This document shows positions 4,242 to 44,594 of a DNA stretch of 44,734 bases, piece after piece (within the stretch, counting starts at the first letter, position 1; every line of letters starts with the position of its first letter). Below the pieces are notes generated by a model. The model searched no databases and was not told the DNA's origin. It was given only the letters and a program-made list of their open reading frames with translations. Both the position numbers and the translations under genes were made by a program. Source of the stretch: an uncultured Bacteroidales bacterium (GTDB lineage Bacteria; Bacteroidota; Bacteroidia; Bacteroidales; UBA4417); NCBI GenBank assembly GCA_903946925.1, contig CAJAXK010000443.1, positions 1-44,734 on the forward strand. Direction: 5' to 3'.

Positions 4242-7200
4242 TAGAATGTTAAGTTTATACCAAATGAATAAACTGCGGTAATAGGATAAATGCCTGTATC
4301 AATACCGTTGGATAGCACATTATCGCTACCGATTTCGGGGGTATAACCTGTAAATTTGGTCAAAGTATAAAGGTTGTTCCCTTTTGCATATAGCCTGCAT
4401 TGCTGAACGTGCATTTTTTTGCTCATGGCTTCGGACAATGTGTAACCAACCACTAAACTTCGCAGCCTTAGAAACGAACCGTCCTGGATGAACTTATCGG
4501 AAGGTATATAGTTGTAGCCACCGAAAGTTGCCCTTGGCTCAACATTGCTTGTTCCTGGCCCGGTCCAGCGATCCATAACATGCTGTTCAAAATTATAAGC
4601 ATCAGGACGTATGGCTTCTTTTCCATTGAAAATTTTGTTTCCTGCCTGACCTTGTAAACTGAACGAAAAGTCGAAATTATGGTAAGTGAGTTCAACATTT
4701 AAGCCAAAAATCACTTTTGGAATCGGTGACCCGATTTCTGTGCGGTCGCTTCCATTAATAATACTATCACCGTTTACATCTACACGGCGGAGATCACCAA
4801 CTTTGGCATCGCTGGTATGAGGATATGCATCAAGTTCGTCTTGCGATTGGAAAATGCCATCTGTTTTGTAGCCCCAAAACGAACCAATGGGTAACCCTTC
4901 GCGGCTTTGGGTAACGTTTCCATAAAAATTGTCGCCACCAAAAAGCAATGAATCTATTCCACTGTTACCGCCGATACTTTTCACTTCGTTTTTAATTGTC
5001 GAAGCAAGTATGCCAACACTATAGCCCAATTCGCCAATTTTGTCGCGCCAGTTGATGTTCGCCTCCAAACCGCTGTTCAACACCTGGCCTGCATTGTAGG
5101 TTATTTTTTGTCCTTGGCCGTTGCCGAGAAAACCTGGTGTGGAAAGATCGACAAGGATATCATCTGTAAAACGGTGATAATAATCAAATTCGCCGGTAAG
5201 CCTATCGTTAAGCATACCAATTTCCAAGCCTATATCTGTTTGAGTAGTTGTTTCCCAAACCAGGTCAGGGTTGCCGCTTTTTGCGTAAGATACACCCGGA
5301 TATTTAATATCGCCCTGTCCGAAAACAGCCATAAGGTTTTGGGTAAGCGAAAACCTATTGGAATAGGCTATTTTCTCATTCCCGATTTTTCCCCAGCTTG
5401 CCCTGACTTTAAGTTTGTTGACCTTGGTAAAATCCTTCATAAATGCCTCTTTCGATATATTCCAACCTGCGGCTAACGAAGGGAAATTGCTGTATCGGTT
5501 TTCCAAGGCAAATTTTGATGAACCATCGCGGCGGAAAGTTGCAGTAAGTATATATTTTTCACTAAATGTGTAGTTCGCCCTGAAAAGGTACGAAAGCATG
5601 GAGTAGTTGAGGTATGGATCAACCCCATTGCTAAAATTGCCATTGATATCACTACCAAAAAGGTTGTTGTATTGCAGGTACCAGAAATCTTCCCCATCCC
5701 TAATAATATTTTCGCCCGAGGCGTTCATGTATTCGGAAGATGTATTCTGCATGGTATATCCAGCCACTGCATTGATTGAATGTTTACCTATGGTTTTGGT
5801 ATAGTTAAGTGTGTTTTCCCACAACCAAGTCAAATTTTCGGAAGTCCCTTTCGAAAGGCTGCTTTTTGTATGCTCCTGCATCGATTTGGATCCATCATAA
5901 TACAACACGGCATAAACAGGCGAAAAGCTTTCGTTTTTGTTGTACCCTGCATCAATCCCAAAACTGCTTTTTGCCGTAAACCCATCAAGGAAAGTAGCCT
6001 CCAGAAACAAGTTTCCGACAGCACGCAAGCCTTTGTTAAAACTATTGTTGTACTCGATACTGGCTAATGGGTTCCCAACTCCTGGCACGCCTGCAAAACT
6101 TCCATCGGCCCTGTATGGTTCCAGGGTTGGCCATGCTCGGTAAACCTGAAAAGTAACGCCTGGTTCGTTTTGCTGCTTGTAAGGGGCTAATGTAATGTTG
6201 TTGCCAAACTTGAGGTGGTTGGTAAGGTTATAAGTGTTGTTAAATTTCAAGGTAATACGCTCATATCCCGATTTATCAACAATCCCTTTTTGGTTAAAGT
6301 AACCAATGCCTATATAATATTGCGTTTTTTTGGTGGATCCCCAGGCCGAAAGCTGATGGCTGTTGATGGGTGCCGGGTTGAAAACTAAGTCCTGCCAATC
6401 GGTATTGGGAACAGCATCCACGTTATTGTAACTTGGGTCGCCAGGGATTTCGTTGGCAATGGTTGCAAAGTCCCTTCCATTTAAAAGGTCAATTTTCTTT
6501 GACAGGTTTTGTATGCTGTATTCGCCCGAATAGCTGAAATTTGTTTTTTCCTCGCCAATTGTTCCACTTTTGGTGGTAATAAGTATAACCCCGTTTGCCC
6601 CTCTGGAACCATACATGGCGGTGGCGGAAGCATCTTTCAAAATTTCCATCGAAGCAATATCAGCGGTGTTGAGGAACGAAATATTATCGAGGATTACACC
6701 ATCAACCACATAAATAGGGGAGGAGTTGTTAAAAGTGCCCACACCACGTATCCTCACCGATGGCGTTGCACCCGGCGCTCCCGAAGTACTTGTAACCTGA
6801 ACACCGGCAACCTTTCCTTGCAAACTCTGTTCAGGGCTGAGTGAGGTTACTTTGGTTAGCTCTTTGGCTTTTACCGAACCAACTGCACCTGTTAAATCGC
6901 TTTTGCGCACAGTACCATAGCCGATAACTACAAGTTCCGAAAGCATGATTTTACTTGATGTAAGGAAAATAGAATAATTGTTTTGGCTGCCAATGCTAAC
7001 TTCTTTGGGTTCGTAACCAACAAAGGTAATTGCCAACAAAACATCGTTTGGGCCTACTTCCAATGTAAATTTTCCATTTATATCGGTTGATGCACCCTTG
7101 GTTGTACCTTTAATTACCACTGTGGCCCCGGGCAGGGTTTCCTTGGTCAATTCGTCCGAAACTGTGCCGGAAATGCTCCGCACCTGGCCAAATACTGTTG

Positions 7201-7288
7201 TTTTCAGCAGCAGCAAAGCCAAAATCAAGAGCAAACTTTTCGCCCGGTAAATAATCTTTGGAGGGAGTACTGGTTTTTTCATATACAT
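4241..7288 (-). CDS. SusC/RagA-family TonB-linked outer-membrane transporter
   Basis: 1015 residues, normal for SusC. After a signal peptide there is a carboxypeptidase-D-regulatory-like domain (about 37-110, GTVSDELTKETLPGATV...). A TonB-box-like segment (LSELVVIGYGT) and the plug domain follow, with VRIRGVGTFNNSSPIYVVDG and MEILKDASATAMYGSRGANG. The remaining ~750 residues are a beta-barrel ending in an aromatic-rich strand (YSFGINLTF). It imports oligosaccharide captured by the SusD partner, powered by TonB. ATG 7288 and ATG 7282 are both usable starts. It is the first gene of the SusC-SusD-LamG-glycosidase series and lies about 560 bp from the sensor-regulator gene on the same strand. Confidence 0.96.
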   Translation of the reverse strand: MYMKKPVLPPKIIYRAKSLLLILALLLLKTTVFGQVRSISGTVSDELTKETLPGATVVIKGTTKGASTDINGKFTLEVGPNDVLLAITFVGYEPKEVSIGSQNNYSIFLTSSKIMLSELVVIGYGTVRKSDLTGAVGSVKAKELTKVTSLSPEQSLQGKVAGVQVTSTSGAPGATPSVRIRGVGTFNNSSPIYVVDGVILDNISFLNTADIASMEILKDASATAMYGSRGANGVILITTKSGTIGEEKTNFSYSGEYSIQNLSKKIDLLNGRDFATIANEIPGDPSYNNVDAVPNTDWQDLVFNPAPINSHQLSAWGSTKKTQYYIGIGYFNQKGIVDKSGYERITLKFNNTYNLTNHLKFGNNITLAPYKQQNEPGVTFQVYRAWPTLEPYRADGSFAGVPGVGNPLASIEYNNSFNKGLRAVGNLFLEATFLDGFTAKSSFGIDAGYNKNESFSPVYAVLYYDGSKSMQEHTKSSLSKGTSENLTWLWENTLNYTKTIGKHSINAVAGYTMQNTSSEYMNASGENIIRDGEDFWYLQYNNLFGSDINGNFSNGVDPYLNYSMLSYLFRANYTFSEKYILTATFRRDGSSKFALENRYSNFPSLAAGWNISKEAFMKDFTKVNKLKVRASWGKIGNEKIAYSNRFSLTQNLMAVFGQGDIKYPGVSYAKSGNPDLVWETTTQTDIGLEIGMLNDRLTGEFDYYHRFTDDILVDLSTPGFLGNGQGQKITYNAGQVLNSGLEANINWRDKIGELGYSVGILASTIKNEVKSIGGNSGIDSLLFGGDNFYGNVTQSREGLPIGSFWGYKTDGIFQSQDELDAYPHTSDAKVGDLRRVDVNGDSIINGSDRTEIGSPIPKVIFGLNVELTYHNFDFSFSLQGQAGNKIFNGKEAIRPDAYNFEQHVMDRWTGPGTSNVEPRATFGGYNYIPSDKFIQDGSFLRLRSLVVGYTLSEAMSKKMHVQQCRLYAKGNNLYTLTKFTGYTPEIGSDNVLSNGIDTGIYPITAVYSFGINLTF

Positions 7289-7849
7289 ATGGGTTAGTTT
7301 GAATTGGTTGAGGTTGCCGCTTTGCTGTATTCCGTAACTTTACTTATTGGATATTTCCGCAATCGTTTGTTACGGGATTAAAAGTACAAATAAAAAAGTT
7401 ATTTTTTGAAAATGATTGCTTTTTGCCTTCATCATGATTACTACATGGCATCGGAGAAAGAAAACCATAGCTCTACAACAGTACATCAAAATTAAATTAT
7501 AGGATATTAAACTATTATAAATCAGTTAAATATATAAACATCAATGTTAGAAATATATTTTGCATAATTTCATTTTGATGAAGTGGCTTTGAATACAAAT
7601 CCCCTTATTTTATGACAGATTTAAGGTTAGATTGTGAAGTTTTTAACTATTTATTCAAAGTGTGCTTAATATTGTAGTTTGCGGTTTCAAGGTGATACGC
7701 TTAATTTAAGGTTTTGGTATGCAATTTACTGGATTTTTCCGATTATCAATGTGTTTTTAGCCGCTGCAAGCTGCATGAAAGAAATGTACTTGCATTTTTG
7801 ACCGCTGCAAGCTGCACAAGAGGAAAAGACCAAAAGGGATACCAGCAAC
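7289..7849 (-). promoter_or_regulatory. Non-coding leader and upstream region of the PUL operon
   Basis: No gene is seen in these 560 bp. On the minus strand TACTTTTA (7386-7379) differs by one base from the Bacteroidota -7 consensus TAnnTTTG and would give a ~80-nt leader for SusC. The region also holds two copies of CCGCTGCAAGCTGCA (7761-7775 and 7802-7816). Promoter assignment is tentative. Confidence 0.35.
7761..7816. repeat. Pair of 15-bp direct repeats after the regulator gene
   Basis: CCGCTGCAAGCTGCA occurs at 7761-7775 and 7802-7816, 41 bp apart and about 35 bp beyond the regulator stop. The flanks are also similar (tttttagc / tttttgac before each copy). They could be operator half-sites or a local duplication. 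Confidence 0.6.
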
Positions 7850-10994: not shown

Positions 10995-12215
10995 ATGATA
11001 CATGGAATATACGAAGGTTTGAAGCGAGGTTTATTTTTTGGATTGCTGTTTATATGCTGTTTAAAGGCGTTCCCTCAGGGAACTGATCCGCAAAGCGATA
11101 GCCTCTATTCATCGCGGCTTATGCAGGCAAACCTTGAATTATATGGTCAGATTGATAGCTTGAACGTATTGTTAAAGGAAACCAAGTTAAGGAACAATGC
11201 GCTTGTGCAGCAGATAGATTCCTTGAAAACTATTGTTGCAAGGCTTCAAGGCGACCTGGTTTTATCGAACACCAAAGTTGATACACTGTTGTCTCAAAAG
11301 TTGCACACCACCCAGGAATTGCTCAGCCTGAAGCAACAAATGCTTTTAGCCAGCACAGCACTCGAGGAAAGGCTTCAGTTACTGCGCGAAAAGGAATACC
11401 AATTAAACGAATGTGAGATTAAACTTAGGGAAGCCAAATCGGAGGCCTCGCTCAACCAGGCAAAACTCGAAGGCAAAATTGATGTGAACAACACCAAAGT
11501 TGAGGCCAGGGACAGGGAAATTGCTTATATGAACGAAACTATTGCTGAAAAAGTCCGCATAATTGCCGAAAAAACTACTGAACTATCTGTGTTTTACCGT
11601 GATAAAAGTACTACGCTTAGGCTTGTTGATTCGCTTTCGAGGGCATTGAATGTAAAGGAACTTGAACTGATTAAAGTGAGCGAACGGTTAAAAATAATCG
11701 AAAGCCAATACAATGAGCTAGTTGCGCAGCGAACTGCAGCCCAAAACAAAAAAAAGAAAGTCCGTTTTGTTCAAGGTGTGGCATTGAAAAACTACCGTAC
11801 ACCCGATTACCAGTTGGCACCACAAAGCTCAGCTTCTACGGCAACTTATGTTATCACAAACAAGAATGCAGGCAATCTCGAATTTGATTATATAACAGGA
11901 GTTAGCCTTTCGCTGTACGATTTGAGCAAACCAGATGGCAAATACACATACGATGCCGGTTTGTTTTTTGGGTTTGGAGGCACAAACCTGTTCAAGAATT
12001 TTTATGTTTCCCCAAGCTTTAAAGCATTCGACTTTTTCCACTTTATGATTGGATTGAATATTGCCGAATACCAGCAATTGCAATCGGGGTTCAACGAAGG
12101 CGATGTGCTTCCTCCCGGTATGGGCATCCCTACAGTGAAGGAATGGAAAGCAAATATGTTTTTTGGAATGACAATAGATTTTGAATTATTATCGAATATA
12201 CCGAAGAAAATGTAA
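10995..12215 (+). CDS. Exported coiled-coil protein with outer-membrane-like C-terminal domain
   Basis: 406 residues from ATG 10995; a TTG three codons upstream is less likely. The N-terminus is a signal-anchor or signal peptide (LFFGLLFICCLKAFPQG). Residues about 30-250 are heptad-like and rich in Leu, Lys and Glu, with no Pro, indicating a long coiled coil. A basic KKKKVRF joint leads to a ~150-residue domain with alternating hydrophobic/aromatic strands (GNLEFDYITGVSLSLYDLS, YDAGLFFGFGGTNLFKNFYV), suggesting a small beta-barrel or sandwich. I do not recognise a named family. It may be a cell-envelope structural protein spanning the periplasm; that is inference from architecture only. A tandem-repeat array begins about 20 nt after its stop codon. 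Confidence 0.75.
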   Translation: MIHGIYEGLKRGLFFGLLFICCLKAFPQGTDPQSDSLYSSRLMQANLELYGQIDSLNVLLKETKLRNNALVQQIDSLKTIVARLQGDLVLSNTKVDTLLSQKLHTTQELLSLKQQMLLASTALEERLQLLREKEYQLNECEIKLREAKSEASLNQAKLEGKIDVNNTKVEARDREIAYMNETIAEKVRIIAEKTTELSVFYRDKSTTLRLVDSLSRALNVKELELIKVSERLKIIESQYNELVAQRTAAQNKKKKVRFVQGVALKNYRTPDYQLAPQSSASTATYVITNKNAGNLEFDYITGVSLSLYDLSKPDGKYTYDAGLFFGFGGTNLFKNFYVSPSFKAFDFFHFMIGLNIAEYQQLQSGFNEGDVLPPGMGIPTVKEWKANMFFGMTIDFELLSNIPKKM

Positions 12216-12235
12216 GTTTTTTGGGTTTAATGTTT

Positions 12236-12505
12236 AAGGGTTCAATTGGCTTCGCCGTTTAAAAGGTTCAATTGGCTTCGCCGTTCAATTGGCTGCGCCG
12301 TTTAAAAGGTTCAATTGGCTTCGCCGTTCAAATGTTCAAATGTTCGTTTGTTCAAATGTTTAAATGTTCTTTTGTTCTATTGTTCAATTGGCTTCGCCGT
12401 TCAAATGTTCTATTGTTCAAATGTTCTTTTGTTCTATTGTTCAATTGGCTTCGCCGTTCAAATGTTCTATTGTTCTATTGTTCAAATGTTCTATTGTTCA
12501 AATAA
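12236..12505. repeat. Nested tandem-repeat array after the coiled-coil gene
   Basis: The motif TTCAATTGGCTTCGCCGTT recurs at about 12242, 12268, 12311, 12382 and 12440, plus one partial copy (ggctgcgccg) near 12290. Between copies are runs of 8-10-bp units such as TTCAAATG, TTCTATTG and TTCTTTTG. The last two higher-order units are spaced ~58 bp. Open frames across the array arise only because the units lack stops; I do not consider them genes. Confidence 0.9.
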
Positions 12506-12679
12506 TCAATATTCAACTCTTCCCTATCCAATGCTTTGGTCACTCAGCCTGTCGTGGTGCGCGTTCAAATATTTTGATGTTCTTTTGCATAGCTTTCCTT
12601 TCCATTTTCGCAATTGGCTTTGCCAGTGCGTTTTTCAAAATATGAATAGTATCAAAAGCTGCAATATCAGGAAAATGTG

Positions 12680-32225: not shown

Positions 32226-32877
32226 TTATCGTGTTTTTAAACTTATTCATATTCAGTGAATATTGAAATCCAAAATTATTCCTTTTTTCAAAGTAAACAG
32301 CAGTTGGTATAGCATATCTTCATCTGGAAGTAGAAGGCACACGTGCGTGCATTGCTTTCAACCAAATTTTCAAAGTATATCATTTTCAAATTCCCACATT
32401 ACCGCATTACCGCATTAGCACATTACCACATTTTCAAATCCCATAACCCCAAGGATAAAAGACCCCACCCAAAACGACAAATCACTCATTCAGCCAGTAG
32501 GGGAGAGGCTTATAATTGAAGAAACCTATACCAGGCCAGTATATCCCCATACATCAGGCTATCATCAGGCAAAAAAAGCCCAGAAAGCAAACAATCAAAC
32601 CTACACCCTCGGCGACAGAATAAACCCCAACTCATAGCTCACTACTCTCCACTCAACACTCACAAACTTACTCAAATCTTCAACATTTATTGACCCTAGA
32701 ATATAACACAAAAATAAATTGAGCGGTCACCATCAAACAACTATTTAATCAATTTCAAATGTCAGAAGAAATTCTAATCCATCAATTTTCAATTGTTGGC
32801 AATTCGATTTATTTAGAATACATGGAAGAATTTGCCTTCTTCAGATTTAATAGATTGGGTCAATAATGTTTCAAATA

Positions 32878-35302: not shown

Positions 35303-35335
35303 AACCGCTTGTAAATACAACATTTACAAGCGGTT
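35303..35335 (-). terminator. Intrinsic terminator of the tRNA-Ser gene
   Basis: A perfect 14-bp stem, AACCGCTTGTAAAT (35303-35316) with ATTTACAAGCGGTT (35322-35335), has a 5-nt loop and is followed by T-rich sequence on the minus strand, 14 nt beyond the tRNA. Confidence 0.95.
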
Positions 35336-35348
35336 AAAATATGTTTTG

Positions 35349-35436
35349 CGGAGAAGGGGGGATTCGAACCCCCGGTACCCTAATCGAGTACGACAGTTTA
35401 GCAAACTGTTGGTTTCAGCCACTCACCCACCTCTCC
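35349..35436 (-). tRNA. tRNA-Ser (anticodon GCT)
   Basis: 88 nt on the minus strand with no encoded CCA. The acceptor stem GGAGAGG pairs with CTTCTCC (one G-U), and the discriminator is G. The anticodon arm is ACAGT-TTGCTAA-ACTGT, giving anticodon GCT for AGC/AGT codons. A long variable arm (CGTACTCGATTAGGGTAC) marks the class II Ser type, and the T-arm is GGGGG-TTCGAAT-CCCCC. Confidence 0.97.
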
Positions 35437-36439: not shown

Positions 36440-37552
36440 TTACCCTTCCCTCAAAATATTATAAACTGAATCCCTTTCGGCAGGCAAGCGGCCGGCTTTA
36501 ATTATCAATTGCCTTATTTCGTCGCTGCTCAAGGATGGGTTTTGGTCGCCGGCACCTGCAAGTGAATATATTTTTGTAGAATCGTTAATAGTACCATCCA
36601 GATCATCAACACCAAATGCCAGCGAGAGTGCGGCCATTTCCTTGCCAATCATGGGCCAGTAGGCTTTTATATGGCTAAAATTATCGAGATAAATCCGTGA
36701 AACTGCATAATTCCTCAAATCTTCAATCACCGAAACTTCTTCGATGTACGACATATCGTTATTCTTGTTTTTGAACTTTAACGGGATGTAGGCATTAAAA
36801 CCTCCAGTGCGGTCTTGTAATTGGCGAAGCAATTCGATATGGTGTATGCGATGCTCAAATTGCTCCACATGGCCATAAAGGATGGTAGCATTGGTTGGTA
36901 TGCCGAGTTTATGCGCGGTTTCGTGAATCTCAAGCCATGCTTCGGTTGATGATTTTTTACCGCAAATCTGCTCCCTGATTTTATCGTCGAATATTTCGGC
37001 ACCTCCGCCTGGGAGCGAATTAAGCCCTGAATCCTTGAGCAGTTGCAGGCCTTGTTCAAAACTCAATCCCGACCGCTGCGCCATATATTCAATTTCAATG
37101 GCTGTATAAGCTTTTATATGCAGGCTTGGCCTTGCTTCGTGCACACGTTTTACCAGGTCGGCATAATAATAAATATCGCGCCCAGGATGCACCGCGCCCA
37201 CAATATGAACTTCGGTAATATCGTCGCCAAGGTTTACAACAGTTTTCACCATTTCGTCAACCGTAAGCTCCCATGATTCTTTGCTTTGGTGATGCGAATA
37301 CGAACAAAATTTGCAATCGTAAACACAAATATTGGTAGGCTCGATATGTACGTTGCGATTGTAAAACACATACTCGCCAACCTTGCGTTTCCTCACCTGA
37401 TCGGCAAGCAAAGCCAATAAGGATGTTTCGGCATCGCGGTAAAGTAGTACGCCTTCATCGGGTGTAATGCGCTGCGAATCCAATACTTTTAAGGCAATTT
37501 CTTTAATGCGTCTTTCGATTGACGCTGCTTCAATTATATGTTGTATTGTCAT
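36440..37552 (-). CDS. mqnE: Aminofutalosine synthase (radical SAM)
   Basis: 370 residues. The radical-SAM cluster CVYDCKFC (Cys76, Cys80, Cys83) binds the 4Fe-4S cluster. The surrounding motifs YNRNVHIEPTN, GWELT-like ESWELTVDEM, TEVHIVGAVHPG, NSLPGGGAEIFD, GIPTNATILYGHVE and IAYW-like KAYWPMIG follow the MqnE branch of the CofH/MqnC/MqnE family. The enzyme joins SAM to 3-[(1-carboxyvinyl)oxy]benzoate in the futalosine route to menaquinone. MqnC is the main alternative, but the HIEPTN and GGGAEIF pattern matches MqnE as I recall it from Bacteroides. Other mqn genes are not in the window. Repeat units lie just upstream of the start. Confidence 0.9.
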   Translation of the reverse strand: MTIQHIIEAASIERRIKEIALKVLDSQRITPDEGVLLYRDAETSLLALLADQVRKRKVGEYVFYNRNVHIEPTNICVYDCKFCSYSHHQSKESWELTVDEMVKTVVNLGDDITEVHIVGAVHPGRDIYYYADLVKRVHEARPSLHIKAYTAIEIEYMAQRSGLSFEQGLQLLKDSGLNSLPGGGAEIFDDKIREQICGKKSSTEAWLEIHETAHKLGIPTNATILYGHVEQFEHRIHHIELLRQLQDRTGGFNAYIPLKFKNKNNDMSYIEEVSVIEDLRNYAVSRIYLDNFSHIKAYWPMIGKEMAALSLAFGVDDLDGTINDSTKIYSLAGAGDQNPSLSSDEIRQLIIKAGRLPAERDSVYNILREG

Positions 37553-37566
37553 GTAAATCAGGTTTT

Positions 37567-37630
37567 GGATGTCGGATGTCGGATGTTAGATGTTAGATGA
37601 GGGATTTTAGATTTTAGATGTGGGATGTCA
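37567..37630 (+). repeat. GGATGTC-type heptamer repeats upstream of mqnE
   Basis: Units GGATGTC, AGATGTT, AGATTTT and GGATGTC follow one another in 7-bp phase. The same unit family occurs at 41690-41756 (reverse) and 44483-44592. Confidence 0.8.
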
Positions 37631-37696: not shown

Positions 37697-37811
37697 GGCA
37701 TCTCAACCTCTCAACCCATCAACCCCTCAACCCATCAACATCTCAACACTTCGACAACGCTCAGTGTCCGCCCATCAACCTCTCAACCCATCAACCTCTC
37801 AACCCATCAAC
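37697..37811 (-). repeat. GGTTGA-type heptamer repeats directly after the protease stop codon
   Basis: On the minus strand GGTTGATG/GGTTGAGA units run from the stop codon (37812-37814) without a gap, in 7-bp phase. A GAGCGTTGTCGAAGTG REP-like motif interrupts them near 37747-37762. Confidence 0.85.
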
Positions 37812-39716
37812 CTACTTCCCATCAGCAATAATAACCTTATGCACCTGCACTTGATCGCCTTGTGTAACCCGAAGGATAAACATGGTTCCAAAGTTGGGGA
37901 GTTTGATGGTATTATTGGTTGAAGTACCTCCTGAAAACTCAAAGTGTTGCGCTATTTTTCCTTGTGGATCGAAAACATCAATCAGTATATCGTTGGTGTT
38001 GAGTATATCCGAAAAAATATTTACTTCGCCAGTTGAGGTTGGGTTTGGCGATATTACTGCTTTAACATCAATATATTCATCCTTTGCAAGGGTATCAATA
38101 TTCAGGTAATTCTCAACAATTAGCTTGATGTTCATTTTGCCATTCCTGTCGAAACGTATGCCAACTGGGTTTTGTTCGGTTGATTCGGGAGGTGTGCCAC
38201 CTTCGAAAAACCAATGCCATGAGTCAGGTTTTCCCGACGAAAGATCCTGAAAATCAACACTTCCACCAACGGGGATTACCTCGCTGCTGGCAGAAAAATT
38301 TGCGTGTGTATAATTTTCGTTGAACGAACCCTGCATTTTGGTCTTTCCGGTATTGGTAGGATCGAGCCAGGGTTTGAGCTGCTGCGAAGCTAAGCTTCCG
38401 TTCGATTGCCAGGAGAACTGAACTTTTCCGTACTTATCCAAACCCGATTTGTCCGAACATCCACTTTCGCCACCAGTAAGCGAGCCAATAACCAATCCTT
38501 CGTTATCGAACAACGCCGAGCCAGACGAACCACCTTCCGTAACGCCGATGTATCCACTGCTGGTGGCAGCCCATTTCACTACCCAATGCGTGTTAGGTGT
38601 TGATTCCCAAGTGCCGGAGGTTGGGGGAACTGTGTAAGTAGATATTTTTTTAACCTGCCCGTTTGGATGGTGGATGCAAACCCCTGATGTTGAAATTTCA
38701 TTATTGGCATCCCAGCCACAGTAATAAGGCCTGTAATTGGAAGGGATTTCGGACAGCAGTTTAACTAAAAGGAAATCGGACCCAACATCGTTTGGATTAT
38801 CAGATAATGCAACTTTTTCGGCCCCGGTAATAGTGAAGTTTGTAGCCGCAGAAGTTATACAAGTGGGAGCTTCGTAATTGAAATAAAAAACCCAAAGGCT
38901 CAAATCGTTGGCTGTTGCCGAAACCCCAGAACTTTTGCTGCAATGGGCAGCCGTAAGCAACAGATTGGCAAAATCCTGCTTTGTATTATTTAGCAATGTG
39001 CCCGAACACCAAAAATAACTTTGTCCAACCTTGGAATATATTTTCACCACCCCTTGTTTTTGATCTTGCCAATTCAGGCCTTCACTGCAATTAATATTAA
39101 CTTCGCAGGTATCGGCAGCAAGAGTAGATGTGTTTTTGGGGATTGGTTTATCGAAGTTGCGGTACATATACACAAGCCCGTTGATTTCGATTATTCCTTT
39201 TTTGCTAACATATTCAGGTTCATAATATTCGACCGTAATTTCATCGCCATAAACCGGACGGGTGGTAAACAAATTATTCTTCAATACCTCATTTGCAGTA
39301 AATGAACCAAGTATTGTATTATGGTCAGGGGTATAAACAAACAAATCAGCCCCTTCGGGCAAGTGCAAATTACTAAAGTTTAAACCTATTCCTAAAGCGG
39401 ATTTACACTTTAAAGTAAGGCGCCATATCCGGCCACCATTTGGCAAGAAGTTAAATTGACCGGCATTTTCCATTGTTACCGAAACAGGCAATTCAATCCC
39501 AACCCTATAAGATTTTTCAAGCATCGCATCAGCATTGTCCTCTTCTGCAAGCTTGAGCAAATCGGGTGGGGCAATTTCCATTGTTAAAAGTTCTGATTTT
39601 TGCGACTGTAGCAGGCTGAAACTTCGCGGTAGCCCACCTCTATCGATTTGACAGAATGCTGAATAAGCGAAAAAAGTAAGAAGAAGCGATAGAAAGCAGG
39701 TATAAATACGTTTCAA
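37812..39716 (-). CDS. Secreted trypsin-fold protease (lysyl-endopeptidase-like) with T9SS domain
   Basis: 634 residues. The protein begins KRIYTCFLSLLLTFFAYSAFCQ, a signal peptide, with TTG as the apparent initiation codon; no in-frame ATG exists between it and the promoter. Residues about 205-450 form the S1 fold with LLTAAHCS (His258), VGSDFLLVKL (Asp314) and TEGGSSGSAL (Ser398). This matches the lysyl endopeptidase/Achromobacter-protease type. A PKD-like domain (about 475-555, FFEGGTPPESTEQNP) and a T9SS type A C-terminal domain (VISPNPTSTGEVNIFS..., ending IADGK) follow. It is exported by type IX secretion. Cleavage specificity is inferred from family only. Confidence 0.9.
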   Translation of the reverse strand: MKRIYTCFLSLLLTFFAYSAFCQIDRGGLPRSFSLLQSQKSELLTMEIAPPDLLKLAEEDNADAMLEKSYRVGIELPVSVTMENAGQFNFLPNGGRIWRLTLKCKSALGIGLNFSNLHLPEGADLFVYTPDHNTILGSFTANEVLKNNLFTTRPVYGDEITVEYYEPEYVSKKGIIEINGLVYMYRNFDKPIPKNTSTLAADTCEVNINCSEGLNWQDQKQGVVKIYSKVGQSYFWCSGTLLNNTKQDFANLLLTAAHCSKSSGVSATANDLSLWVFYFNYEAPTCITSAATNFTITGAEKVALSDNPNDVGSDFLLVKLLSEIPSNYRPYYCGWDANNEISTSGVCIHHPNGQVKKISTYTVPPTSGTWESTPNTHWVVKWAATSSGYIGVTEGGSSGSALFDNEGLVIGSLTGGESGCSDKSGLDKYGKVQFSWQSNGSLASQQLKPWLDPTNTGKTKMQGSFNENYTHANFSASSEVIPVGGSVDFQDLSSGKPDSWHWFFEGGTPPESTEQNPVGIRFDRNGKMNIKLIVENYLNIDTLAKDEYIDVKAVISPNPTSTGEVNIFSDILNTNDILIDVFDPQGKIAQHFEFSGGTSTNNTIKLPNFGTMFILRVTQGDQVQVHKVIIADGK

Positions 39717-39739
39717 AGTAGCGTGATTTTAAATTTATA

Positions 39740-39747
39740 CAAAGGTA
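39740..39747 (-). promoter_or_regulatory. -7 promoter element for the protease gene
   Basis: TACCTTTG on the minus strand matches TAnnTTTG and lies 23 nt before the TTG start. Confidence 0.65.
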
Positions 39748-39860
39748 AATAAAAAAGGGTGAACGGTGATTGGGGGATTTAGAATGTATTGAACGATTTA
39801 ATGCTGAATCCACTGAGAAAACCCTAAAAGAAGAAAACCAAGGAGCCGTGAGTCAAAAAG

Positions 39861-39900
39861 AACCGCTTCGAGTGTTGGTAAAAACCACCCGAAGGGTTCA
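39861..39900 (+). repeat. Dispersed palindromic repeat, copy 3
   Basis: AACCGCTTCGAGTGTT, then a GGTAAA spacer, then AACCACCCGAAGGGTT: two tandem 16-nt units, each an imperfect AACC...GGTT palindrome, matching the reverse complement of copies 1 and 2. Confidence 0.8.
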
Positions 39901-40266
39901 TTTTCAAATTTTCAAACTAATTGATCACAACATAGGCACAATAGGGCACAGTGGAGGATATATTGATTTGTAACTTTCCTATATTTTCAAATTCCAAAAC
40001 TAAATTATCAACACAATAGGCACAGTAGGGCACAATAGAGGGTATGTAAATTCGAGTCCACTCCGAAAAGTCTTTTTTAGCCACAAAGACCCAAAGCCTC
40101 TAAGCTTCACTAAGTCTATAACGCTGAATAGCATTGCTTTGTGAACCTTTGTGTCATAGTGCCTTAGTGGCGGTTCTTAATTTTTAGGATATCTGAGTAG
40201 ATTCGTATTTGTAACTTTCGTGCATTTTCAACTTCCTGCATTTTCACATCCCCAAATCCTTGACAG

Positions 40267-40306
40267 AACCACTTCGAGGGTTGTTAAAAACCAATTGTAG
40301 GATTCA
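40267..40306 (+). repeat. Dispersed palindromic repeat, copy 4
   Basis: AACCACTTCGAGGGTT, then GTTAAA, then a decayed second unit AACCAATTGTAGGATTC. Same organisation as copy 3. Confidence 0.75.
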
Positions 40307-40402
40307 TTTTCACATCCCCAAATTTTCACATCCCCAAATTAACCCATTATCGCATTCCCACATTCCCACATTTTCAAATTTTCAAATTTTCGAATTAACA
40401 CA
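40303..40402 (-). repeat. Short-unit repeats directly after the dihaem gene stop codon
   Basis: On the minus strand the stop codon is followed by AAAATTTG, GGAATGTG and GGGATGTGAAAATTTG units to about 40303. The coding strand carries the G/T-rich sense. Confidence 0.75.
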
Positions 40403-41599
40403 TTATTTACCCCCAATCGGCTTCGCCCCATCTGGCAATTTAACTGGAGGTCCGAAGGCAGGGGTGGTAAGGAATGTTTCATCGCGCAGGGTTTTGATAA
40501 ATGAAACCAAATCCGCTTTTTCATTGGGTGTAAGCTGTATTCCGCCATCGTAGGCATGGTGCATCAGCGGATGTACGTTTGCCGACCAGATAATTCCCTG
40601 CGAATAAAAATCTATGACTTCTTCCAAAGTTTTAAACCGCCCATCGTGCATGTAAGGACCTGTTAGTTCAATGTTCCTCAAGGTTGAAGCTTTGTAAGCA
40701 CCATGATCGGATGGATCGCCGGTAACAGAAAAACGGTCGCGGGAATCGTTGAAAACAGAATCTTTGCCATTGTTATAAAAAAGGTTTGTGGTAAACAGGG
40801 GGTTGCCGGATCCACCATGGCAATGAAAGCAATCGGCACCTTCCTCGGTCATAAAAAGCACGTAACCATTTAATTCGTTGGTGCTGAGCTGCTGTTCTCC
40901 ACGCATGTATTTGTCGAATTTTGAATCGGATGAAATCAAAGTGCGAGAAAATTGTGCTACTGCCTTACTGATATTTTTCATGGTAACGGTATGGGATCCA
41001 AAAGCTTTATAGAACAGTTCGGGATAACCATTTATACTCTGTATCAAGGCTTTGGTTTTGTTGGTGTCGCCAGCAAATTCGTGAGGCGCAGTAACTGCCA
41101 TGCCAACAATATCTTCAATATTCCTTTGTGCAGGATTAGGATTTTCCTCATAAATTGAACCTGACCATAAATAGCCCGACTCGTTCCAAACCAGGTTTAT
41201 CATCGGAAGCATAAAATGTGGGGTATTTATGCCCGTAATCCCAAAAGTGCGCCCACCAATAAATTTAGGATGGTTTATCCCACACTCGAACGAACTGGAT
41301 TGCAAATGGCAAGTACCACAACTCATCAAACTGTCGGGATGGGTTTTACCTGATAAACGCCCGTCGTAAAAGAGGTTTCGTCCTAATTCCACACCTTCCA
41401 CAGTCATTGGGTTATTCGAAGGGATATTCATACGGGTGGGGAAATACTTTGGCACAACAATTTGATAAGGTGTAGGGTTGTAATCCGCCGCATCCTCATG
41501 TTTACAATCAGAGAAAAGAAAAGCAAAAATGATGATGCCCAAAATGAACATCATCCGGGAAATAAACCATCTAAAATTCCCAAGTACCATACAACTCAT
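40403..41599 (-). CDS. Dihaem cytochrome c peroxidase/MauG family enzyme (MbnH-like)
   Basis: 398 residues with a lipoprotein-like N-terminus (FLFSDCKHED). Two haem c sites are present, CGTCH (94-98) and CFHCH (257-261). The family motifs ELGRNLFYDGRLSG near residue 71 and TGPYMHDGRFKTLEEVIDFY near residue 313 are also present. Bacterial cytochrome c peroxidases reduce H2O2; the MauG/MbnH branch uses the same fold to oxidise protein Trp residues. It lies downstream of an MbnP-like gene on the same strand, the arrangement of mbnP-mbnH, so a modifying role is plausible. Start alternatives are ATG 41590, 41554 and 41551. The Tyr316-Met317 pair leaves the axial-ligand question open. Confidence 0.9.
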   Translation of the reverse strand: MSCMVLGNFRWFISRMMFILGIIIFAFLFSDCKHEDAADYNPTPYQIVVPKYFPTRMNIPSNNPMTVEGVELGRNLFYDGRLSGKTHPDSLMSCGTCHLQSSSFECGINHPKFIGGRTFGITGINTPHFMLPMINLVWNESGYLWSGSIYEENPNPAQRNIEDIVGMAVTAPHEFAGDTNKTKALIQSINGYPELFYKAFGSHTVTMKNISKAVAQFSRTLISSDSKFDKYMRGEQQLSTNELNGYVLFMTEEGADCFHCHGGSGNPLFTTNLFYNNGKDSVFNDSRDRFSVTGDPSDHGAYKASTLRNIELTGPYMHDGRFKTLEEVIDFYSQGIIWSANVHPLMHHAYDGGIQLTPNEKADLVSFIKTLRDETFLTTPAFGPPVKLPDGAKPIGGK

Positions 41600-41689
41600 T
41601 ACTTTCCGATTAATTTAATTTTGATGCACAATCCAAATCAGTGCCTGCAATAGCCTTTTCAACTGGCGTATCGTTTGTTACGCGCAACG

Positions 41690-41756
41690 CATCCCACCTT
41701 CCACATCCCACATCGCACATTGCACATCCCACATCCAACATCCCACATCCCACAAC
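41690..41756 (-). repeat. GGGATGT-type heptamer repeats directly after the MbnP-like gene stop
   Basis: On the minus strand GTTGTGGGATGTGGGATGTT and further GGATGTG/GCGATGTG units run from the stop codon (41757) into the 157-bp gap before the dihaem gene. Confidence 0.85.
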
Positions 41757-42530
41757 TCACTTTCCCGAAAAAGAAACCTCAAAAGCATTGGCACCATTTT
41801 TACAAGCTTTCAGCATGGCATCCTGGTTTTGCATAATTTGCCCGCCGGTTTCGTTCCAATCCCATAAATTTGGGGTTTCGAACCATTTTTCGATGTTCAT
41901 GGTAATAGTAAATTCATTTCTGGTAGGGTTGGTTTGTATATTTAATGGGAGCGTTACCTTAAAATAATTTTGATAAAAAACAGTCCCTTCATCGTTCATA
42001 CCAATACCAAGGTGTAGGTTAAACGGTTTTATTGTATCGCCGGTAGCTTTCCATTTCCCGTTCATTTTCATATAATGATACCCGCCGCCCATCATATCCG
42101 GCCAAAACATATCCCGTTCGGGAGGGTTGACAAACAAACCGATTTTGTTTTTTGCCTCATTTATCCCAAAAACAAATGAAATGCTTGAGTAGCTTGTAAC
42201 CGGCAATAGGTCTGTTGGGGTCCATTCCAAAGTGGCAGGAATGTCAATGTCAACATAGTGGATTGCACTGTCGGATTCTATCGTAAACACTTGCCCATCA
42301 GAAGTAATAAGTTGTACTTCCGAAATAAAATACTGCAATTCGTCAACCTGATATATATTTCCAGCTTTATTGGTGTATTTCATTGTGCCCTTTTGCAATT
42401 GCGCACCATCCACATTGGTTTTAAAAACAAAAAGTGGAGTTATGGGTTCAACTTTTTCGTCGTTACACGAAACGAGGAGTAACATTAAAACAATAAGGGA
42501 AAAGGTAAATTGATAGCGTTGAGGGGTCAT
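41757..42530 (-). CDS. MbnP-family copper-binding lipoprotein
   Basis: 257 residues from ATG 42530; a TTG at 42557 would overlap the promoter. The lipoprotein signal ends in LLLVSCNDEK (Cys22). The mature part fits the MbnP-like family: FVFKTNVDGAQLQ, YQVDELQYFISEVQLIT, SYSSISFVFGIN, and MFWPDMMGGGYHYMKMNGKW (141-160), where other members have MxWxWxxGY; Trp143 is kept and the second Trp is lost. In methanotrophs MbnP binds copper after its partner MbnH converts a Trp to kynurenine. The neighbouring MauG-type gene completes the pair. Role in copper handling outside methanobactin loci is inferred. A -7 element lies 25 nt upstream. Confidence 0.85.
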   Translation of the reverse strand: MTPQRYQFTFSLIVLMLLLVSCNDEKVEPITPLFVFKTNVDGAQLQKGTMKYTNKAGNIYQVDELQYFISEVQLITSDGQVFTIESDSAIHYVDIDIPATLEWTPTDLLPVTSYSSISFVFGINEAKNKIGLFVNPPERDMFWPDMMGGGYHYMKMNGKWKATGDTIKPFNLHLGIGMNDEGTVFYQNYFKVTLPLNIQTNPTRNEFTITMNIEKWFETPNLWDWNETGGQIMQNQDAMLKACKNGANAFEVSFSGK

Positions 42531-42554
42531 TTTTCTGTTTTGGTTTAAAACGCA

Positions 42555-42562
42555 CAAAATTA
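42555..42562 (-). promoter_or_regulatory. -7 promoter element for the mbnP-like/dihaem gene pair
   Basis: TAATTTTG on the minus strand matches TAnnTTTG, 24 nt before the ATG at 42530. Confidence 0.6.
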
Positions 42563-42674
42563 GCCAATATTACACATCAAACTTCCCTGATTCCATGCAA
42601 GATGTTTTTTTGATGTGCTGAGGGGATCTTAGAGTTTTTAGGTGTTTTCCTGAATGTTTTTCCACTTTCTGTTT

Positions 42675-43170
42675 CTTGTCCTTTTGTCTTGACACAAAAG
42701 TACCAAAAAGTCAAGGCTTTATATAAATTTTACACATCTGTACACCTTGGTAAATACCCGCAAAACATGGCTTGACAGTTTGGGTACAACATCCTTGGAG
42801 CAGGTGAAGCTGTGTTTTGCTACGCACGTGCCCGCGCGATTTACCATCGGCTACATCTGCGTAAAATTTCTATAAGGCCAGTCCCTACAACCTCAAAATC
42901 TACAATATTTACCCAGAGCCTTCCGAACCGGTTTTGCCCCAGGCAAGGACTATCTTGCGAAGGACAGGCCTTATAAAAATACGATAGCGGTTCTTAGACG
43001 GAGGTATGTGCGGGAGGCATGTGCGTAGCAATACACAGCAACGACAAAAGTTTGGAATTGTGCCATATCAAATGCCTTGTATTGCGGGAAGATAACTTCG
43101 GCTTAGAAACGCAACGTATTTTTATAAAGCCTTGATTTTTTGTTACTTTTTGATCAAGCAAAAAGTAAGA
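42675..43170. repeat. ~496-bp imperfect palindrome (long inverted repeat)
   Basis: The left arm (about 42675-42890) and the reverse complement of the right arm (about 42957-43170) align along their length. Shared stretches are TCAAGGCTTTATA, CCCGCAA, TTGCTACGCAC with GCTGTGT before it, and TATAAGGCC. Each tip is itself a small palindrome (CTTTTG...CAAAAG; CTTTTTG...CAAAAAG). The centre is ~65 bp. No gene is seen. Transcribed, it would form a long hairpin. Confidence 0.8.
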
Positions 43171-43286
43171 GAATGTATTCAAATCGATAATACCAATCAA
43201 GAAGTAAATTCTAATCACTTTTCCGTCAAGCAATAAACTAGCACATCAAAAAAACTTATAGCCTGATTCCACTCTCAATTTGTTGC

Positions 43287-43294
43287 TATCTTTG
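43287..43294 (+). promoter_or_regulatory. -7 promoter element for the Smr-domain gene
   Basis: TATCTTTG followed by CACCCCCC matches TAnnTTTG and gives a leader of ~90 nt. The sequence closely resembles the one before efp. Confidence 0.65.
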
Positions 43295-43390
43295 CACCCC
43301 CCAAAAATCAGTTCACAAATTTGATTGATAAGCTGAATCGCTATTTCTAATTTGGTTTTTAGGCAACCCTTTTCATAAAAAAATACAGAC

Positions 43391-44482
43391 ATGAAATTTA
43401 AACCAGGAGATAAAGTAAGGTTTCTGAACTCAACAGGGGGCGGGACGGTAGTAAAAGAGATCAATGCATTTATGGTTTCGGTCGAAATTGAAGATGGTTT
43501 CGAGATACCAACCCTTAGCAGTGAGCTTGTTGCCATTGAACCGGCTGGCACTTCGGGCGATTTGTTCTTGAACAAAAACGAAAGGCGGAGTGAAATTCCG
43601 GTAAAAAAGGAAGAACCAAAGCCTGAAGTTGTTGAGGATGAAAGGCTGAGCAAAATCGTGCTTCGTGGCGAGGGCCAACAAATGTCGAACGGGGTTTTTC
43701 TTGCCTGGGTCCCACAGGATCAGCAGCGTTTGCTTACCGGCGGTATTGATGTATATTTGGTAAACAACACTTTACACGACATACTCTACACCTTTTTTAT
43801 CAAAAATGCTGATGGGAATTTTTCGGGCATGGATTATGGCTCGGTTCCACCTGATTCGAAAATTGTGATTGAGAGCATTGTTCGCGACGATATTGGGCTA
43901 TGGTCGAATGGGGTGGTTCAGGTAGTTTTCTTTTCCGATGAAAATGAAAAAGTACTCATGCCTGTTAGTGCTACATTCAGGATAAAAGGTTCTGTCTTTT
44001 TTCAGGAAGGCAGCTACCACGAAACCCGTTTCCTGGCCAACCGCAAATCAATTATTTATACAGTTTGCGAATTAAACAGGATACCAAGCACTTACGAACA
44101 GCTACTGATAGAAAAAGAGAACCAGCAACCCATCCCGGCCGCGGCAGTGCGCTTTAAGCCCGAAACCGCTATTGATAATTATCGCACCGCCCCGGGCGAA
44201 GCTGAAATTGATTTGCATATTTCGGCTTTGCGCGATGAATACGGAAAACTTACGCCCCACGACATACTTACCATACAAATGGGCGTTTTTGAACGCATGT
44301 TGGATAGCGCAATTGCATTCAGGTTCAATAAAGTGGTTTTTATTCACGGTATCGGTAACGGAACTTTAAAACAAGCCATAATTAAACGCCTTGCCGAATA
44401 TGAAGATATTGAATTCCGTACAGCATCCTTTGCTAAATATGGAAATGGCGCGGTTGAACTTTTGTTAAGGAAAAACCAATAG
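43391..44482 (+). CDS. DUF2027/Smr-domain protein
   Basis: 363 residues. The N-terminus (MKFKPGDKVRFLNSTGGGTVVK) resembles the MutS2-type small beta-barrel/KOW-like segment. A DUF2027 beta-rich domain follows (about 85-245: ISNGVFLAWVP-like, YTFFIKNADGNFSG). The Smr domain occupies about 272-363, with IDLH (274-277) and HGIGNGTLK (319-327), the metal-independent endonuclease motif. Smr domains nick or cleave structured nucleic acid; their role in this architecture is not established. ATG 43391 is the sole sensible start. The gene stands alone, with a repeat array directly after its stop codon. Confidence 0.9.
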   Translation: MKFKPGDKVRFLNSTGGGTVVKEINAFMVSVEIEDGFEIPTLSSELVAIEPAGTSGDLFLNKNERRSEIPVKKEEPKPEVVEDERLSKIVLRGEGQQMSNGVFLAWVPQDQQRLLTGGIDVYLVNNTLHDILYTFFIKNADGNFSGMDYGSVPPDSKIVIESIVRDDIGLWSNGVVQVVFFSDENEKVLMPVSATFRIKGSVFFQEGSYHETRFLANRKSIIYTVCELNRIPSTYEQLLIEKENQQPIPAAAVRFKPETAIDNYRTAPGEAEIDLHISALRDEYGKLTPHDILTIQMGVFERMLDSAIAFRFNKVVFIHGIGNGTLKQAIIKRLAEYEDIEFRTASFAKYGNGAVELLLRKNQ

Positions 44483-44594
44483 GATGTGGGAGGTGGGAGG
44501 TCGGATGTGCGATGTCGGATGTCGGATGTCGGATGTCGGATTTCGGATTTCGGATTTCGGATGTCGGATTTCGGATGTCGGATTTCGGATTGGG
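44483..44594 (+). repeat. GGATGTC-type heptamer repeats directly after the Smr gene stop
   Basis: The stop codon TAG is followed at once by GATGTGGGAGGTGGGAGG and then GGATGTC/GGATTTC units in 7-bp phase up to the IS-like end at 44595. Confidence 0.9.

Follow-up and report, generated by a model that had tools for sequence, protein, structure and literature searches.

Arrays of 7- and 8-bp repeats at stop codons of an uncultured Bacteroidales genome: placement, strand polarity and species-specific words

The window analysed here is a stretch of 44,734 nucleotides from an uncultured Bacteroidales bacterium (contig CAJAXK010000443.1, assembly GCA_903946925.1). It carries several short tandem arrays, most of them beside gene ends. 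The arrays and the adjoining genes are listed below.

12221–12509, + strand: composite array, words GTTCAATT and GTTCAATTGGCTTCGCC, periods 8 to 57, 3' of the stop at 12215; G and C balanced
32381–32443, − strand: 8-bp array in a divergent region, absent from the earlier list
36440–37552, − strand: radical SAM gene with a CofH/MqnC C-terminal region (PF04055, PF19288; earlier named mqnE), array upstream
37565–37628, + strand: 7/21-bp array, GGATGTC and TAGATGT, upstream of the mqnE start; G-rich outward from the gene
37702–37814, − strand: 8/16-bp array, words GGTTGATG and GGTTGAGA, overlapping the stop at 37812; coding strand G-rich
37812–39716, − strand: trypsin-like gene (PF13365), array at its stop; match to the PF18962 secretion sorting tail weak and below cut-off
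40306–40396, − strand: 8/16/24-bp array, words AATTTGAA, AATGTGGG and GGGGATGTG, 3' of the stop at 40403; coding strand G-rich
40403–41599, − strand: gene of the di-haem cytochrome c peroxidase (MauG) family (PF03150), array at its stop
41690–41765, − strand: 7/21-bp array of GGGATGT words, running from the stop at 41757; coding strand G-rich
41757–42557, − strand: MbnP-family gene (PF20243; ORF), array at its stop
43391–44482, + strand: gene of a DUF2027 and Smr protein (Pfam PF09640, PF01713), its stop anchoring an array
44482–44590, + strand: 7-bp array of 15.6 copies (GGATGTC/GGATTTC), starting at the stop of the DUF2027-Smr gene; coding strand G-rich, G-skew 0.56

The arrays at the stops at 37812, 40403, 41757 and 44482 were found where the original prediction had placed them, and all four were G-rich on the coding strand. 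The C-terminus of the DUF2027-Smr protein aligned to its end in relatives. The array after 12215 had been described as related and about 20 nt from the stop. Its TRF boundary lies 5 nt past the stop, its periods range from 8 to 57 bp in a composite, and its skew is 0.06. Because of the composite periods and the balanced G and C, it cannot clearly be grouped with the others. The array upstream of mqnE had been set apart as an exception; read outward from the start it is G-rich, like most skewed leaders. It had also been argued that a 7-bp phase rules out coding. Three such units make seven codons, so a 7-bp period is compatible with coding; yet none of 18 in-gene arrays had a smallest period of 7 or 8, and in 13 of them the smallest period was divisible by three.

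Stop-adjacent arrays are real and genome-wide, not confined to the window. We sampled 938 kb of the window's genome, leaving out 19 sampled contigs below 3 kb, which were read as N; gene ends came from our own hexamer caller, not from Prodigal. The sample held 142 arrays of the 7/8 type scoring at least 50, of which 14 overlapped called genes and 19 were unplaceable between two called genes. With no called gene beyond it, the array at 44482 is not among the placed ones. The intergenic 7/8-bp-unit arrays numbered 109, compared with 2–4 in five Markov shuffles. As in the class of long simple-sequence (heptamer) repeats, tandem units of 5–11 bp exceeded chance, and units not divisible by three were largely kept out of genes in this sample.

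In co-directional regions, the array began within 10 nt of the upstream stop in 31/83 cases (expected 6.6). When the window was left out and one random array was taken per region, the figure was 24/61 against 5.6 expected, and in a second species it was 9/19 against 2.0. An array lay within 25 nt at 45 of 548 sampled stops, that is, in about 8% of sampled genes. Array-adjacent stops were TAG or TGA in 26/39 cases, compared with 203/509 elsewhere (p = 0.001). The base that followed them was G in 19, T in 17, A in 3 and C in none; elsewhere, C followed at 77/509.

Strand polarity was examined in the same sample, arrays with |G-skew| below 0.3 being counted as ambiguous and excluded. On the stop side, within 50 nt of the nearest gene end, the coding strand was G-rich in 35 of the 37 clear arrays. 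Array-free regions had no such bias on that side (34:29), and the difference was significant (p = 1e-5). Hence both the enrichment at stops (31/83 vs 6.6) and the strand bias (35:2) survived the genome-wide check of the original prediction. The strand rule, with the G-rich sense on the coding strand, held near gene ends but not over all co-directional regions, where 28 arrays were G-rich-sense, 31 C-rich-sense and 24 ambiguous. More than 50 nt from a gene end, the polarity was lost (14:11). In the second species, arrays within 25 nt of a stop were G-rich-sense in 8 cases, C-rich-sense in 2 and ambiguous in 1. Within 50 nt on the start side, arrays were C-rich-sense on the coding strand 20:1, no different from array-free leaders (98:13). 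C-rich-sense arrays upstream of starts merely track general leader composition.

The words were compared across 16 genomes of the genus; outside the genus, GGATGTC was the one word searched for. From the 938-kb sample came 69 different words of 7 or 8 bp in exact tandem, some of which differ from one another by a single change; 23 of the 69 were common to at least two sampled arrays. The dictionary of words is species-specific and is used at many loci per genome, while orthologous stops carry other words or none. Overlapping matches to GGTTGAKR numbered 326 in genome G000, 142 in G002, 143 in G005 and 175 in G011, with 24 or fewer in each of the other 12. GGAAGTC had none in G000 and G002, and 90, 78, 45 and 34 in G003, G007, G001 and G013, respectively. 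GTGAAWA had 149 in G003, where its reversed control was also high (51), and none in G005 and G001. Counts for GGTTAWT were dropped as evidence because its reversed control is almost the same word. At the four orthologous stops compared, the relatives examined mostly had no array or another sequence. A related array was present in G002 at the stop corresponding to 40403; at those corresponding to 37812, GGTTGAG-type words occurred in G002 and GTGAAWA in G003 and G009. Of the two options in the original prediction, the microsatellite that spreads and settles at 3' ends fits better than elements that define those ends, since the loci of one genome have words in common whereas other species have different ones. 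Few long exact matches linked one array to another (2 pairs at 36 nt), so direct copying between loci is no more than a candidate process.

Heptanucleotide families of heterocystous cyanobacteria are known as STRR sequences. PMC4692102 describes mostly intergenic heptamers, GGGAATC in Xanthomonas and GGGGA(T/C)T in Nostoc. They are found on the sense strand up to 50 bp from a stop, or on the antisense strand up to 50 bp before an ORF. They are closer to the 5' neighbouring ORF whatever its orientation, form convergent inverted pairs in two Xanthomonas genomes and are under-represented between divergent genes. The same placement, on the sense strand after stops and the antisense strand before starts, was found here within 50 nt (35:2 and 20:1). 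In that account each species group has one consensus word with quadruplex-capable G-tracts, whereas we found the 69 words in a mixture of 7 and 8 bp, mostly without such a motif, and sister species carry different words. The arrays are a fast-changing, species-specific version of the Xanthomonas and Nostoc heptamer repeats, and their placement rule had already been published there.

TAACTGA heptamer repeats, according to PMC4679880, occur in Beggiatoaceae, Cyanobacteria and five Bacteroidetes. Like the present arrays they are intergenic and oriented to genes: of the 14 sets in Flexibacter litoralis, 12 are forward before starts and one is reverse directly after a stop. Unlike them, they consist of a single word and stand mostly before starts, and the main species have them in two to six copies. 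Mrazek 2007, as cited in the same paper, found heptamers to be the commonest long simple-sequence unit in most genomes and proposed slippage; to this, the present analysis adds placement relative to stops and species dictionaries. Borg repeats (PMC9879509) are also fast-evolving, with a composition bias on the gene-carrying strand. They differ in having perfect, A-rich units, 43–65% of them inside ORFs, and in belonging to extrachromosomal archaeal elements. Nothing specific to these arrays came from PMC4060949. A search of the open-access literature found no description of these Bacteroidales arrays, though one may exist elsewhere.

We tentatively give close to an even chance to the arrays being lineage-specific, satellite-like DNA, whose 7- or 8-bp units grow, spread and turn over in intergenic regions. 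Growth in the G-rich sense would be favoured after stops. Recombination between existing arrays, or template switching from one to another, may carry words to further loci, and the arrays may grow by slippage. Just after a stop, where ribosomes no longer cover the nascent RNA, a G-rich non-template strand would promote growth or survival; judging from sequence, an R-loop-type bias is a candidate basis. Upstream of starts, ordinary leader composition (C over G on the coding strand) would permit only C-rich-sense arrays.

Several observations weigh against parts of this reading. An R-loop bias would be expected to act further from the stop, but the polarity is gone beyond 50 nt. In G013, the convergent near-stop cases split 1:2. 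The terminator-like hairpins of array regions, which are at shuffle level (see below), are not necessarily predicted by a purely neutral satellite. No proximal-to-distal gradient in unit homogeneity was seen in 32 arrays, and polar growth therefore finds no sign there. Nor can the supply of a stop codon by the array account for everything: among 33 near-stop arrays of G-rich sense, 7 were free of stops in all frames over their first 60 nt. Loss of mutS1 was discarded, matches being present in 16/16 genomes (in G000 and G014 they are partial and do not reach the family cut-off), as was DinB, present in 14/16 without a pattern. It is possible, though somewhat unlikely, that a genome-wide vocabulary of 7–8-bp satellite words multiplies in trans and overwrites orthologous trailers with words particular to the species, stop codons nucleating new DNA in one direction through a process coupled to transcription or translation.

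Selection on mRNA alone could produce the same polarity if arrays arose anywhere in both orientations, and C-rich trailers (Rho-like sites or a weak stop context) and G-rich leaders were then purged. The likeness of start-side polarity to array-free leaders and the absence of C after array-adjacent stops (0/39 vs 77/509) agree with it. However, array-free trailers do not avoid C (34:29), and convergent genes, for which a Rho stop downstream is harmless, follow the rule as strictly in G000 (10:0), though not in G013. A Rho-polarity filter was rejected on this equal polarity of convergent regions in G000. Purging also leaves the flush anchoring at stops unexplained. We regard this explanation as rather doubtful.

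The arrays could instead be functional 3'-end elements that replace hairpins and act by termination, exonuclease block or protein binding. Their position and strand at stops are consistent with this, and the original prediction had contrasted array genes with hairpin-bearing ones. Within the window the contrast was not confirmed: in a scan reaching to the next gene or 400 nt from the stop, a hairpin with a T-run occurred at 0/5 array stops, yet at only 3/20 array-free stops. The scan recovered the hairpins of the sigma-factor gene, of the gene at 1443–2711 and of the M16-peptidase gene that ends at 31335, and the tRNA's was seen separately; lpxD and the DUF2892 gene, cited earlier as bearing hairpins, were not located in the window. 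A modest contrast appeared genome-wide. Terminator-like hairpins within 400 nt were found at 5/44 stops with near-stop arrays (shuffled 5), 5/47 with an array elsewhere in the region (shuffled 4) and 63/298 in array-free regions (shuffled 11). The deficit was significant for all array regions together (10/91, shuffled 9; p = 0.03) but not for near-stop arrays alone (p = 0.16), and a trailer displaced or lengthened by an array would give an equal deficit.

Other results argue against a role of this kind. No U-tract lay 3' of the window arrays, and within 80 nt of near-stop array stops a hairpin with a U-tract was found at 0/44. When the five window trailer RNAs were folded, three behaved like shuffles (z −0.42 to 0.28) and two folded somewhat better (z −1.94 and −2.61). 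The tRNA was the sole match in an Rfam search of the window, and at the four orthologous stops the relatives examined mostly lacked an array or had another sequence. Hence the proposal that arrays define 3' ends keeps the shuffle-level hairpins in its favour and loses on orthologous stops, U-tracts and three of five folds. Intrinsic termination was rejected on the missing hairpin and U-tract and the mostly shuffle-like folds, and the arrays are probably not dedicated terminators. Functional 3'-end elements in general are unlikely.

In a break-and-extend process, an intergenic break would gain G-rich repeats on the 3' strand of each end before being rejoined, which would put G-rich sequence first and C-rich last on both strands. 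Co-directional regions with at least two clear arrays were ordered G..C in 13 cases, GG in 2, a complex CGCC in 1 and plain C..G in none. Sign switches inside contiguous arrays ran from G to C in 8/8 cases in G000 (excluding L108, a 75-bp hairpin repeat) and in 1/1 in G013. Against this, convergent regions with two clear arrays numbered two, one ordered GC and the other CG, and leader composition explains the start-side polarity. Ku-dependent joining was rejected, as Ku was not found in any of the 16 genus genomes. Obligate synthesis by a reverse transcriptase or telomerase-like enzyme was likewise rejected: RVT_1 was found in 9/16 genomes, and no reverse transcriptase in the array-rich G013 (99% complete), G005, G011 and G010 (64% complete). 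We consider the process quite improbable. Matched hairpin arms, as in REP/BIME-like palindromes, were also rejected; the arms of G..C pairs were no more complementary than mismatched ones (−35.9 vs −38.8 kcal/mol, 10 pairs).

Regulatory G-quadruplexes, as proposed for Xanthomonas and Nostoc, would share the placement rule of PMC4692102, but are very improbable here, as four G-tracts of at least three, the three-tetrad motif, occur in only 7/109 arrays, GGG-free near-stop arrays are still 10:0 G-rich-sense and GGG-free arrays follow the mirror rule 21:5.

A rule reported for quadruplex-prone words thus applies here to many words from several families, most of the words lacking quadruplex potential. 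The search for a cause therefore shifts from quadruplex function toward the origin or tolerance of such DNA beside stop codons. On the start side the rule matches ordinary leader composition, which leaves the stop-side half as the part that calls for explanation. As about 8% of sampled genes have such a trailer, gene callers, repeat maskers and terminator predictors will often meet these arrays in this genus.

The assembly of the genome carrying the window (G000; 6.17 Mb, 498 contigs) was sampled at every fifth contig, with 19 contigs left out, giving 82 sequences including the window, which is contig C443 (938,077 bases in all). A self-trained hexamer caller returned 632 genes (80.7% coding), and the 590 kept after filtering by score or length bound intergenic regions of three kinds: co-directional (345), divergent (67), and convergent (61). 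The intergenic sequence held 131 arrays scoring at least 50 (3–7 in five Markov shuffles), 109 of them with 7/8-type periods (2–4 in the shuffles). Exact tandem words of 7 and 8 bp occurred in 58 and 62 instances, respectively. None of the 18 in-gene arrays of the sample had a smallest period of 7 or 8, and in 13 it was divisible by three. Within the window, the positions originally given for arrays and stops were borne out by Tandem Repeats Finder and an ORF listing. Arrays of ~10–11-bp units around GTGGTCATTC in three sampled sequences (L044:2595–2719, L111:9661–9791, L117:3395–3553) form a further word class beyond the 7/8-bp periods. The window also has a 10-bp repeat, CACAATAGGG, at 40012–40038, with related runs, CACAATAGG and CTATTGTG, in further intergenic regions (L099, L125).

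The predicted enrichment of arrays at stop codons was found genome-wide: 31 of 83 co-directional arrays start no more than 10 nt from the stop of the gene upstream, compared with 6.6 when arrays were placed randomly in the same co-directional regions. For the same distance from the start of the gene downstream, the corresponding values were 9 and 6.5. Stop anchoring was also seen with one random array per region and the window excluded (24/61; 5.6 expected), and in a second species of the genus, G013 (319 kb; 9/19, 2.0 expected). Array density in G000 was lowest in divergent regions (0.35 per kb), with 0.85 in co-directional and 0.62 in convergent ones.

The G-rich strand had been noted to be the coding strand. 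This holds close to gene ends but not across all co-directional regions of G000, where 28 G-rich-sense, 31 C-rich-sense, and 24 ambiguous arrays showed no bias. Within 25 nt of a stop, 33 arrays were G-rich on the coding strand, one was C-rich and 11 were ambiguous. For arrays no more than 50 nt from the nearest gene end, the strand that reads away from the gene was G-rich in 35/37 at stops and 20/21 at starts; farther away, this was so in only 14/25. Counted once per stop, regardless of the nearer end, arrays up to 50 nt from a stop were G-rich-sense by 36:4. By region type, the 50-nt polarity in G000 was 10:0 at convergent stops, 25:2 at co-directional stops, 17:1 at co-directional starts, and 3:0 at divergent starts; the same classes in G013 gave 1:2, 10:1, 2:0, and 1:1. 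Leaders of array-free regions, read outward from the start over 50 nt, were already G-rich by 98:13, and arrays were alike (p = 0.70); hence, the leader half of the strand rule is ordinary composition. Outward from stops, array-free regions gave only 34:29, from which arrays differ (p = 1e-5), and the trailer half is therefore particular to arrays.

Array order was counted for all arrays scoring at least 40, in regions with two or more clear arrays. In co-directional regions, a G-rich array preceded a C-rich one in 13 cases; the order was GG in two, CGCC in one, and plain C-then-G in none. There were two convergent cases, one each way, and two divergent ones (GG and GGG). Sign switches within single contiguous arrays ran from G to C in 8/8 cases in G000, sampled sequence L108 excluded, and in 1/1 in G013. 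L108:865–1638 consists of 75–76-bp hairpin repeats with a CTCTCTTTCCTTCAAAGAGAGGGGG core, also present in L060, and is a separate REP-like family. At window 37747–37766, an inverted-repeat sequence of the CACTTCGACA..CTCAGTG type lies within the repeat array; this type has six matches, both strands of 938 kb counted.

The arrays had been proposed to mark genes without hairpin terminators. Terminator-like hairpins within 400 nt followed 5/44 stops that have an array nearby (5 in shuffles), 5/47 whose region holds one at another position (4 in shuffles), and 63/298 array-free stops (11 in shuffles). Relative to array-free regions, this deficit has p = 0.03 for all array regions and p = 0.16 for near arrays alone. 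Within 80 nt, the counts were 0/44 near-array stops versus 32/298, the array itself occupying that space. The result favors the proposed association of arrays with absent hairpins, but such a deficit would also follow if the array displaced the hairpin or if arrays preferred positions inside operons. Folding z-scores of five window trailers were −2.61, −0.13, 0.28, −1.94, and −0.42. Canonical terminators exist in G000, since the tRNA-Ser gene (window 35348–35436, minus strand) has a strong 15-pair hairpin with a T-run directly 3′ of it (35303–35335). A termination system is a candidate reading only.

Array-adjacent stop codons were TAG in 15, TAA in 13, and TGA in 11 cases (elsewhere 126, 306, and 77). 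TAG plus TGA is enriched beside arrays (p = 0.001); therefore, some stops may come from the array. As the whole cause, an array-supplied stop is excluded by 7/33 near-stop G-rich-sense arrays, whose first 60 nt lack any stop. Pairing of array arms into hairpins was rejected, as matched arms pair no better than mismatched ones, and so was a G4 explanation, for which only 7/109 arrays qualify while arrays without GGG still follow the placement rule. Ku was found in 0/16 genus genomes (the control scored in one of 14 genomes). RVT_1 was present in 9/16, and was not found in array-rich G013. All 16 had mutS1 matches, 14 above cut-off; that of G000 is partial (profile positions 2–578 on contig C405), with a second fragment on C472 (positions 2–89, one stop), perhaps an assembly effect.

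Orthologous stops were compared among genomes of the genus. GGTTGA-type words are present at the trypsin-like gene in G000 and G002, and GTGAAWA-type words in G003 and G009; G011 has a run around ATTGACA, and G013 and G007 have just a short GTGAAA- or GTGCAAA-type start; G015, G008, and G005 have no array. The MbnP gene is followed by GGGATGT-type (G000), GATGTGG-type (G007), or GTGAGAG-type (G005) arrays, by a short G-rich run in G003 and G013, and by none in six other genomes. Related arrays follow the MauG gene in G000 and G002, and no such array lies at this stop in the other genomes having a complete gene end. The DUF2027-Smr gene has a long array solely in G000, and a short related stretch in G002. 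In overlapping word counts, GGTTGAKR matched 326 times in G000, 142 in G002, 143 in G005, 175 in G011, and at most 24 in each of the other 12 genomes. GGAAGTC matched 90 times in G003 and never in G000 or G002; GTGAAWA matched 149 times in G003 (control 51) and never in G005. With three mismatches allowed, GGATGTC-type matches occurred in 14/16 genus genomes, G000 included (those listed for G001 and G012 being mostly the GGAAGTC word), and in 7/44 genomes of the order's other genera, with 1 to 7 each.

Two further elements lie in the window. A dispersed ~0.6-kb element at 42664–43264, with many partial copies in G000 and its genus, and to which many sequence matches fall (query 7065–7665), is probably a non-autonomous mobile element. 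The contig end (44595–44734), which matches short stretches of G010 (97%) and G014 (91%), is probably an insertion sequence end abutting the 44482–44590 array.

PMC4692102 describes heptamers of Xanthomonas (GGGAATC) and Nostoc (GGGGA(T/C)T) that lie within 50 bp of a stop on the sense strand or, alternatively, on the antisense strand no more than 50 bp ahead of an ORF. They sit closer to the 5′ neighbor, and two Xanthomonas genomes contain 70 and 75 convergent pairs; as described there, their placement is the same as that of the G000 arrays. PMC4679880 reports TAACTGA heptamers, with five Bacteroidetes among the carriers. Since these accounts already describe them, the repeat class and the placement rule are not claimed as new. 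As far as the open-access literature searched shows, what is new is many words together in one genome, the little G4 potential of such arrays, the leader-composition control for the placement rule, and the differing words at sister species' orthologous stops. The arrays are a genuine satellite phenomenon that spans the genome, has its anchor at stop codons, and is common to most of the genus; their words may spread in trans between loci, and their growth may be coupled to transcription.
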